NCBI GenBank assembly: GCA_001630475.1
Contig: KV419424.1
Span: 126,931-190,930, forward strand
From: Sistotremastrum niveocremeum HHB9708
Lineage: Eukaryota; Basidiomycota; Agaricomycetes; Sistotremastrales; Sistotremastraceae
DNA length: 64,000 nt
Direction: 5' to 3'
Shown here: piece after piece, positions 8,051-13,680 of the stretch
How the letters are laid out: every line of letters begins with the position of its first letter
Numbering within the stretch: the first letter of the stretch is position 1
Position numbers and translations under genes: made by a program
Notes under the pieces: model-generated
What the model saw: only the letters and a program-made list of their open reading frames with translations
Told to the model about the DNA's origin: nothing
The model's database searches: none

Positions 8051-8070
8051 TGATGAGCCCGTGTGGGTTG

Positions 8071-9783
8071 TGGGGCCCTGTTTGGCGCTGTTTGTCCCCT
8101 TCAGCTTGCCTTCACCCGAATCACCGAGCCCGCTACCTGTCCGACAGGCCATACAGACTCCGCTCTCCCATCTCTTCCTCGTACTCCCACCTCCCCCATC
8201 CAACAGCCCTCCCCACTGTTGGATGTGCGCGCATTCGTACGTCGTTGCTTGCGCAAGCGAGCGGCGGCTAGATAACTCTGTGTTGTGGCTTATGCGGAAG
8301 CATCAAAACCGAGGCATGTCATGATAGGCGCGCCCGGGCCACTCATGGGGTTAGCGCTGTTCCTCTCTCTCTCTCTTGTCGACGTGTCCTCGTTCCCCAC
8401 CCCCTCTCTCAAAGCAGCTCTTGGGCAGCCTTGTGTGCGCCGATCATGCATTGCGATATGCATTTGGAGATTTATTCGGGACTGGCTTATGCGAAAGCAT
8501 ACCAACTTGGTCCATGTCGAGAGGCATGGCCAGGCCAGTTCTGCGCTGGAACACTTGTGGTGTGGGGCCGACGGACAGAAACCGTGCGCTAGTCCCTTCA
8601 GCTTTGGTATGTGTTCCATTCGTCGTCTGTCTATTTACTAACAAATACTGCCTCAGCTCGCAACCTCCTTCCACGAAACACCGGCGCTCTGGCTTTTTGA
8701 CATCCTTGGTGCTATCACCATGGATTGGTAAGTACTACCGGGAGCAATCATCGTACAGCGGTGCGACGCTCATTTGACTGATTTCTCTCTCTCTACCTTA
8801 CACTATACACGTCGTGTACACTCTTATTATACAATTGATTATGCATACGTCTGGTTCAATATTGAACATCTGCTGTAAACCTTGCACTCGATATTCTGCG
8901 CCAGTAGTAGACACAGCGAAGCACTGCAGTCACTGCGCATGCGCCATTATTGTCATGCAAGCATTGAGAATCAAAATATGGTCATACAACATAGTGGAGA
9001 GATCCAACAGAAGTAGCTCGATGAATATATTTCGTGCCCGAAGAGTACCAGACCGTCCAGACGGGTTTTTTGTTCAATCACAAGCGGATCCAGGAGCTTT
9101 CGCATTTGCGAAGGCCACGAATTCAGAACTAAGGGATACGTGATAAAGTAGAGGTAGCGAGGAAGACCAGACATGGGTGCTCAAAAGGCGTCTGTAGCCA
9201 TGACGAATGAGACCGAGCGGGTTCAGGCAACACTTGAAGCTACGGTGCGGACAAGAGAAGTCGTCGGGGAAAAGCCCACCACCAACACTGGGAGTTCAAG
9301 ACACGAATCGGTTGAAAGGTCAGCATTCGGACAAACCAGAAAGGAGACTGCGTGAGCTGAGAAGAGCGTATAGGAACTTGAGGATTGCGTCGAATGCAAG
9401 TGTCAGAAGAAGTTACAACGTGCCGTCGCCATGTTGTATACATGCAACTGACAGAGTGTGGCAACCTGAGGCAAACACCCATCCCTGTCCGTTGCATAAT
9501 TGTGAGCGTTGATCAAGAGTCGGAATGCCCTCTCACCTATGGGATTCTCAAGCTGATTCGGCCTTATCTTAGCATCTTTCGAAATAGATTGCCAATTCAT
9601 CCAATCCTCGTGTTCGAGAGGCGTTGACCCGAGACAAAGTATTTCGGTGTATTGTTCGACCTCCGGTCAAAGATAGAAGCATAGGACAGATGATAGCCAG
9701 GAAAGAGCGACTGAGAGCCTGGATTAAGCTGCCGCGGCACCATAGTGATAGGGGTCGGACGTGCAGGCATCCATGTCTAACAG
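8071..9783 (+). repeat. Local repeat, copy A (runs into assembly gap)
   Basis: This segment is related in direct orientation to 10529-11890 along its length and, in its first 500 bases, to the copy split at 12434-13680. Shared landmarks are the 'ggcgcgcccgggccactcat' block (8328 / 10588 / 13488), a CT-rich tract followed by gtcgacgtgtcctcg, and the ggccgacggacagaaacc block (8569 / 10852). A candidate exon-intron-exon passage (VPSAL| |LATSFHETPALW, intron about 8609-8656) and a short IDYAYVWFNIEHL stretch suggest the unit derives from a multi-exon gene that has decayed. No transposase, reverse transcriptase or terminal repeat was found. It could be a degenerate host gene family or an unclassified element. 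Confidence 0.6.
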
Positions 9784-10528
9784 NNNNNNNNNNNNNNNNN
9801 NNNNNNNNNNNNNNNNNNNNNNNNNNNNNNNNNNNNNNNNNNNNNNNNNNNNNNNNNNNNNNNNNNNNNNNNNNNNNNNNNNNNNNNNNNNNNNNNNNNN
9901 NNNNNNNNNNNNNNNNNNNNNNNNNNNNNNNNNNNNNNNNNNNNNNNNNNNNNNNNNNNNNNNNNNNNNNNNNNNNNNNNNNNNNNNNNNNNNNNNNNNN
10001 NNNNNNNNNNNNNNNNNNNNNNNNNNNNNNNNNNNNNNNNNNNNNNNNNNNNNNNNNNNNNNNNNNNNNNNNNNNNNNNNNNNNNNNNNNNNNNNNNNNN
10101 NNNNNNNNNNNNNNNNNNNNNNNNNNNNNNNNNNNNNNNNNNNNNNNNNNNNNNNNNNNNNNNNNNNNNNNNNNNNNNNNNNNNNNNNNNNNNNNNNNNN
10201 NNNNNNNNNNNNNNNNNNNNNNNNNNNNNNNNNNNNNNNNNNNNNNNNNNNNNNNNNNNNNNNNNNNNNNNNNNNNNNNNNNNNNNNNNNNNNNNNNNNN
10301 NNNNNNNNNNNNNNNNNNNNNNNNNNNNNNNNNNNNNNNNNNNNNNNNNNNNNNNNNNNNNNNNNNNNNNNNNNNNNNNNNNNNNNNNNNNNNNNNNNNN
10401 NNNNNNNNNNNNNNNNNNNNNNNNNNNNNNNNNNNNNNNNNNNNNNNNNNNNNNNNNNNNNNNNNNNNNNNNNNNNNNNNNNNNNNNNNNNNNNNNNNNN
10501 NNNNNNNNNNNNNNNNNNNNNNNNNNNN
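9784..10528. other. Assembly gap (745 N)
   Basis: Unresolved bases lying between repeat copies A and B; the end of A and the start of B are hidden inside. Gap placement within duplicated sequence suggests an assembly break on the repeat. Confidence 0.99.
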
Positions 10529-12433: not shown

Positions 12434-13680
12434 TAGGGCCCTGTTTGGCGTTGTTTGTCCCCTTCAGCTTTGACTTCACTAGTCTCGTCCCCAGACCACT
12501 ATAGACGTTGTTTGCGCGTATTTGTTTTCTGTCAACGCGCACGTCTATAGGGTCTGGTCCAATGTTATTTTTCATGACATCATACTCTCGGCTCAACTCT
12601 CGGCACATGACCCCGGCCAGTCGCGGGAATCATCTTCAGTGTCCAAGGATCATGCTGTATTCACACGAAATTCAGCCGTTTTATTGCATTGAAGCGTCGC
12701 ATGAGCCTCCCAAAGCCCAAATTATTCCCCAACAGCCTGAATTTGAGTTATACCACGAGATAATGCTTATCTGTTTTGCATTTGCCGCATTGAAGCTCAC
12801 CTACCCGACGACAACGAGGAGCTAGCTGCTCAGAGTAGTTGCCAAATCGTGTTCACAGTGTGTGAAGACATAAAAGGTTTCTCATCGCAGGCCGTCGCTC
12901 TGACAGTCCTCAACTTCTTGCCCTCAGAAGAGAAACTCCACTCCTGTGGACCTCAGAAAAAATCCACGGACAAAGACAAGGAGGTATAATGTAGACAAAG
13001 ATGTCTCCGAGTCTGTTTTATCCATCTTGCGTCAGTCTGCGCTTGGTCGGGGCACAAGCTATCTCGTTTTGCTACGATTATTACGGTGCAGACATGATCT
13101 CCGAAGCTCGGCCGAGACCTTGAGGATGCCCGAGCTCATGTTCGGATTGATGTTTGCCGAGGCGATGACATCATGCGAAAGTTGGTTTGGACCAGACCCT
13201 CTAGAGACGCGCTTTGACAGAAAACAAACAAGCGCAAACTCTCTAGTGGGTCTGGGAACGAGACTATGACTTCACCCGAATCACCGAGCGTGCTACATGT
13301 CCAACAGGCCATACAGACTCCGCTCTCCCATCTCTTCCCCGTACTCCCACCTCCCCCATCCAACAGCCCTCCCCACTGTTGGATGTGCGCATCTTCGTAC
13401 GTCGTTGCTTGCGCAAGCGAGTGGCGGCTAGATAACTCTGTGCTGTGGCTTATGCGGAAGCATCAAAACCGAGGCATGTCATGATAGGCGCGCCCGGGCC
13501 ACTCATGGGGTTAGCGCAGTTTCTCTCTCTCTTTCTCTCTCTCTTGTCGACGTGTCCTCGTTCCCCACCCCCCCTCTCTCAAAAGGTAGCCCTTTCATTG
13601 ATATTCATCGTCGGTCTATCAACTAACGCGTGTAACCCTAGCTCACCCCCACCATCCTCGTAAAGCACCAGGGCTGAGTC
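12434..13680 (+). repeat. Local repeat, copy C, interrupted by a MITE
   Basis: The left piece (12434-12479) matches 8071-8115 of copy A: the ggccctgtttggcg block followed by tttgtccccttcagc. The match resumes at 13267 with ttcacccgaatcaccgag and continues to about 13586. The interruption is exactly the 787-bp element described separately. After 13586 the sequence resembles the intron and next exon of copies A and B (13587-13680) but skips the intervening 400-bp segment they carry, so copy C has a different internal structure. Confidence 0.6.
12480..13266. mobile_element. Non-autonomous Mutator-like (MULE) MITE, 787 bp
   Basis: Terminal inverted repeats of about 105 bp (12480-12584 and 13160-13266) begin TAGTCTCGT and CCAGACC and match in inverse orientation at roughly 80 percent. 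Identical 9-bp direct repeats TGACTTCAC flank it (12471-12479 and 13267-13275). Copy A of the host repeat has a single TGCCTTCAC at the same point (8107-8115), which is the expected empty site. Long TIRs with a 9-bp duplication are the signature of Mutator-like elements. Each TIR also folds on itself (CAGACC..CTATAGACG near 12492-12506 against CGTCTATAGGGTCTG near 12542-12556). There is no transposase ORF inside, so it would have to be moved in trans; the 550-bp core matches nothing I recognise. Confidence 0.85.

Follow-up and report, generated by a model that had tools for sequence, protein, structure and literature searches.

A 787-bp insertion occupies positions 12480–13266 (+ strand) of the window, the 64,000-nucleotide stretch of Sistotremastrum niveocremeum HHB9708 DNA that was analysed. 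It is likely to be a DNA transposon of the cut-and-paste type that is non-autonomous, has ends of the foldback type and probably belongs to the Mutator-like (MULE) superfamily. The element lies on contig C31 of the host genome assembly, which was searched throughout (34.7 Mb in 111 contigs). It is flanked by two copies of the target site duplication TGACTTCAC, at 12471–12479 and 13267–13275, which on direct comparison are identical for 9 bp and no longer. One copy of a local repeat contains the 787 bp as a single block; other copies of the repeat are without the insert. The first-pass annotation of the window had described a 787-bp insert with a perfect 9-bp duplication and exact boundaries, and this was borne out to the base.

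A genome search with the flanking repeat, in the form of copy A, gave 11 matches, two of which are the flanks of the insertion and nine of which are other copies, including copy A. One recognisable target copy without an insert is present in five of these nine: C31:134990 (copy A), C31:124532, C31:94040, C31:96191 and C17:338013. In copy A the single uninterrupted target site, TGCCTTCAC, is found at 8107–8115 (+ strand). The empty site already proposed for copy A is therefore joined by four more, and with one target in each of the five the annotation's counter-case, a supposed empty site that lacks a single target copy, did not materialise. C31:97529 (70% identical) spans the insertion point without the insert, but a 7-base gap removes most of the target. 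At C31:117090 the target is present and the repeat match stops about 6 bases further on, and the matches at C31:104761 and C31:137459 do not cover the insertion point. The filled copy is homologous to copy A at 90.6% identity over 53 bp to the left of the insert and at 92.9% over 294 bp to its right. Both target duplicates of the filled copy contain an A where the six readable paralogues have a C, which indicates that this base change probably predates the insertion. Just outside the duplication the filled copy has one extra base compared with five of the six readable paralogues; C31:94040 also has an extra base just outside its target site. The local repeat family that hosts the insertion (window 8060–8380 and 13267–13543; C31:94040–140466) was seen on both strands of C31, where nine places fall within 46 kb if the interrupted copy is counted once, and at one place on C17. 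A run of 745 N (9784–10528) lies between the repeat copies of the window.

The first 83 bases of the element (12480–12562, + strand) and its last 80 (13187–13266, − strand) are inverted repeats with 83% identity over 84 alignment columns, and their outermost 16 bases differ by one mismatch. The inverted repetition agrees with the earlier description; its length does not, since ends of about 105 bp had been reported and the alignable part is 84 bp. The longer estimate may be explained by a common motif near position 95–105. A TGACATCA-like motif occurs at about position 95–110 of the C31 ends and of the ends of related insertions on C2 and C21, with the version CAACGTCA on C39. In the window element the subterminal motif ATGACATCAT is present on the + strand near the left end (12574–12583), where it is similar to that in the C2 and C21 ends, and near the right end (13165–13174), where inward reading gives TGATGTCA. 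The 606-bp core (12570–13175, + strand) matched only itself in the genome among the best candidates, which were those scored. The three longest stop-free frames of the element (121, 106 and 80 aa) gave no Pfam match up to an E value of 1, and the element gave no match in Rfam.

The terminal motif TAGTCTCGTnCCCAGAC is found at 12 places in the genome with at most one mismatch, and the terminal 17–18 nt of the left end are common to the relatives of the element. Taken together with the places at two mismatches, these correspond to at least nine complete insertions genome-wide. Besides that on C31, they are located on C1 (568 bp including a 340-N gap, duplication AAATGATCA), C39 (588 bp, GCTACCGGG), C2 (1252 bp, CGGAGTAAG), C21 (1625 bp, CCGGGATTT) and C7 (591 bp, GCTTGAACG), and three are miniatures on C27 (68 bp, GTTGGAGCC), C25 (67 bp, GCAGCTTCC/GTAGCTTCC) and C33 (61 bp, CCCACCAGG/CCCACCAGC). 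Scoring in the genome searches was restricted to the best candidates, which makes the copy numbers minimum values. The ends of all nine start with TAG(T/A)CTC. Their 9-bp duplication is exact in seven cases and matches at eight of nine bases in the other two, and the target sites vary, with a G+C content of 22–78%. Other copies with 9-bp flanking duplications, for which the annotation had suggested a search, are thus present, and none of the nine showed a duplication of another length, which would have spoken against it.

The insertions on C1 and C39 have 114-bp ends that are 99–100% identical, yet they lie at different loci with different duplications, which suggests that the family moved fairly recently. 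They are the one near-identical pair seen, judged by their ends and as a lower bound. The C2 and C21 ends are 87.7% identical over 219 bp, parts of the interior are also common to both, and each element carries its own, different further insert. The inverted repeats within C2 and C21 are 104–116 bp long at 79–80% identity. Dating of the window insertion from the divergence of its left and right ends was dropped, because C2 and C21 also show about 80% left/right identity and the asymmetry of the ends is thus probably older. A 74-aa frame of C21, considered as a possible coding remnant in C2 and C21, had no Pfam match, and some gaps in the C2/C21 alignment are not multiples of three. An insert of about 270 bp inside the C2 element (L022, about 937–1205; also L053:4331–4599) has 27-bp inverted ends and apparently a TA on either side. 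A copy on C27 is 73% identical, and the insert looks to belong to a further small family of transposons.

When only the two 86-bp ends were used as DNA queries, two and four places were returned; the majority of the relatives were therefore recovered by the pattern search. With up to three mismatches allowed, the terminal motif gave 283 matches against 334 for the reversed control, and matches with three mismatches are background. Of 11 places with two mismatches, C7:742365 and C25:439493 are ends of complete insertions and one, on C34, is a partial end; the remaining eight have no partner end within flanks of about 1.5 kb. One end without a convincing partner in the flank examined is present on C59. 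A lone family end on C40 (L005 from 1501) is separated by about 900 bp from GGTTAG-type repeats that close the contig and probably represent a telomere.

The superfamily assignment rests on the duplication and on the length of the ends, since no transposase was found between such ends. MULEs are described as having duplications of 8–11 bp and terminal inverted repeats (TIRs) of 14–500 bp that are usually long, with some families lacking TIRs, in the part of PMC6446971 drawn on here. The duplications of the nine insertions fall within this range, as do the ends of C31 (84 bp at 83%), of C1 and C39 (114 bp) and of C2 and C21 (104–116 bp). MULE transposase domains are encoded in the genome at least four times. 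The annotation had suggested looking for a full-length MULE with the same ends, and such an autonomous partner was not seen near the four domains: no pair of family ends was present in the 8–9 kb around each of them, in an assembly that is gapped, and on C27 the MULE is located at a contig edge. The terminal motif with up to four mismatches is absent from three of the four loci. The fourth (L054, C17) has four matches with 3–4 mismatches, which is the background level genome-wide, and its own long inverted repeats are unrelated to the family ends. The inverted repeats that flank the C17 MULE locus (L054:1080–1855 and 8519–8901) each comprise two pieces totalling about 190 bp, with 94–98% identity, and perhaps mark a fairly young element. 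An insert in the C21 element (about 280–935, L058/L004) resembles them at 80% over 160 bp. Near the C6 and C100 MULE loci, two elements with similar ends TAAGGCTTCCAACGA (L055:4142–4423, 282 bp; L056:721–1020, 300 bp) have different 8-bp duplications and are perhaps hAT-type miniatures.

With no transposase tied to the family ends, the element could instead be a non-autonomous member of another cut-and-paste superfamily that duplicates about 8–9 bp, such as Merlin, KDZ/Zisupton, P or hAT. We regard this as unlikely. The transposase domain searches covered the MULE and IS1595/Merlin types, and a Merlin-type partner was rejected because the IS1595/Merlin-type domain (PF12762) gave no match in the genome at an E value of 0.001. 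P elements produce an 8-bp duplication, whereas seven of the nine insertions here have exactly 9 bp and the other two match at eight of nine positions. According to the portion of PMC12730594 consulted, Zisupton and the Dileera-lineage Zisupton-1_PGr also duplicate 8 bp, and the hAT duplication is usually 8 bp, with groups of 5, 6 and 7 bp. The Mutator-like label of the annotation is therefore likely as far as duplication and end length go, even though no transposase was found with these ends. Its other label, MITE, suits a short, non-coding element with inverted ends, but many near-identical copies are not seen and the core matches only itself. The family is low-copy and heterogeneous, and MITE is a loose name for it.

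Each end of the window element is itself a hairpin, as had been noted previously, and can fold back on its own. As single-stranded DNA the left end folds at −22.6 kcal/mol (z −7.6) and the right end at −18.7 kcal/mol (z −4.6), and for each end none of 200 shuffles was as good. The left-end hairpin (CCAGACC...GGTCTGG) spans 12491–12557 (+ strand) and the right-end hairpin spans 13192–13255 (− strand). Arms were compared across both ends of five large elements (C31, C39, C2, C21 and C7; ten ends in all), with C1 omitted as its ends are duplicates of the C39 ends. For each end, the outer arm was scored against an inner arm chosen by one rule from every end, with the first seven conserved bases unscored. 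The scores for arms of the same end sum to 78, compared with a permutation mean of 47.6, and none of 20,000 permutations reached 78. The own-end pairing was highest or tied in all ten ends and strictly highest in five, the ties being mainly with close relatives. With seven less redundant ends, one of 5,040 arrangements reached the observed sum, and with six ends one of 720; in both cases this was the true arrangement. An earlier version of the test (1/20,000 and 1/5,040) used a choice rule that favoured own arms, and the single rule for all pairings gave the same answer.

In an alignment of six ends, 93.2% of the cells pair, against 27–41% for slid structures; two of the cells are scored as G-U, a pairing that carries less weight in DNA. 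Three of the 13 pairs have changed on both sides. The covariation score was reached by one of 500 shuffles, but double changes (83 of 500 shuffles had as many such pairs) and further pair types (213 of 500) are not unusual. Kinship among the ends means that the arm-matching and covariation figures overstate independence.

The three miniatures retain the outer arm of each end, and the inner arms are absent. One of their ends corresponds to the C7 left end at 16–19 of 22 bases. The other starts with TAGACTC, as does the C7 right end, and shares the stretch CCCTCTGC with it, although a gapless comparison gives only 13–14 matches in 26. This second end, with up to three mismatches, occurs at three places in the genome and at none for the reversed control. 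The miniatures are read as internal-deletion derivatives that still inserted. That the deletion came before the insertion is suggested by the different duplications at the three sites, two of them imperfect. With outer arms only, the miniatures suggest that the inner CCAGACC arm is not essential for insertion.

Since each end folds alone, and units of 61–68 bp with related termini exist, the 787 bp might be thought to consist of two separate hairpin miniatures that inserted close together as a composite unit around captured DNA. This is very improbable. Neither hairpin includes the outermost 11 bases of its end, which are present on the outer side only, one 9-bp duplication encloses the whole element, and the miniatures consist of two outer ends with no inner arm.

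For a single element with foldback ends, as preferred here, a transposase supplied in trans, which was not found in the assembly, would recognise the terminal 18–30 bp, comprising TAGTCTCGTnCCCAGACC and what follows. It would cut at the TAG/CTA ends and insert the element with a 9-bp stagger. The inner inverted CCAGACC copy, which makes the hairpin, would then probably serve as a further site of recognition, or else be a palindrome that replication maintains. A more tentative proposal, which we put forward as possible rather than probable, is that the quasi-palindromic arms of the larger members stay complementary despite drift, either because a cruciform or a paired binding site for the transposase is selected for or because template switching corrects them in replication, and that the 61–68-bp members form a natural deletion series in which some 25–35 bp per end suffice for transposition with a 9-bp duplication. 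If so, these members would rank with the smallest cut-and-paste units of eukaryotes.

Foldback Mutator-like elements are already known from plants and nematodes, and the family described here adds to that kind. The excerpt of PMC4486113 used here describes FARE1 of Arabidopsis as a foldback element with long palindromic repeats at both ends, such elements now being placed among MULEs. The palindromic ends are alike by description; FARE is a plant element, and the arms here are short (about 13–20 bp). MuTAnT of Medicago, in the same excerpt, is Mutator-like and has long TIRs built of modules that fold back, but it targets TA microsatellites and counts 218 related elements, whereas the present family has varied sites and at least nine complete insertions. 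The Mutator/Foldback element Tm1 of the root-knot nematode, as portrayed in part of PMC3169594, resembles the family here in its 9-bp duplications, composite TIRs, low copy number and non-coding members, and in having a paralogous empty site. Its TIRs are tandem units of about 14 bp, in contrast to the single inverted copy in the ends here, and unlike the present family it has a known transposase-encoding member. Plant MULEs with several TIRs per end, mostly tandem, are also described (PMC3310237, in part). For fungi, the part of PMC6446971 drawn on gives 9–10-bp duplications and 22-bp TIRs for the MULE Mutyl, TIRs of up to 99 bp for other sub-groups and 30–220 bp for a mixed group with Basidiomycota among its members. 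Hop-group and other fungal MULEs, likened here by description, carry transposases, unlike this family.

No report of this family was found among the titles and abstract openings returned by the literature searches. It adds a low-copy, foldback-type, probably Mutator-like fungal family that offers fixed boundaries and empty sites, its members ranging in size from 1,625 bp to only 61 bp. The interest lies in the matching of the hairpin arms and in the 61–68-bp members; the element is otherwise fairly ordinary genome furniture. The size series raises the question of how much of the palindromic end the transposase needs, and a second question is why the inner arm stays complementary in the larger members if the miniatures insert without it.

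Within the window, a scan for 9-bp direct repeats around 16-nt inverted ends with up to three mismatches gave two hits, the 787-bp element (one mismatch) and a pair with three mismatches that joins the two repeat copies. The same scan on 60 Markov-resampled windows, which lose the window's own repeats, gave none. That the direct and inverted repeats of this duplicated region coincide by chance, which the repeat-rich surroundings and the second, weaker hit might favour, is extremely unlikely given the resampled windows and the empty sites, and is already refuted by relatives at other loci with their own duplications. The genes noted include one for an HSF-type domain protein; a match to a response regulator was weak and below the cut-off.
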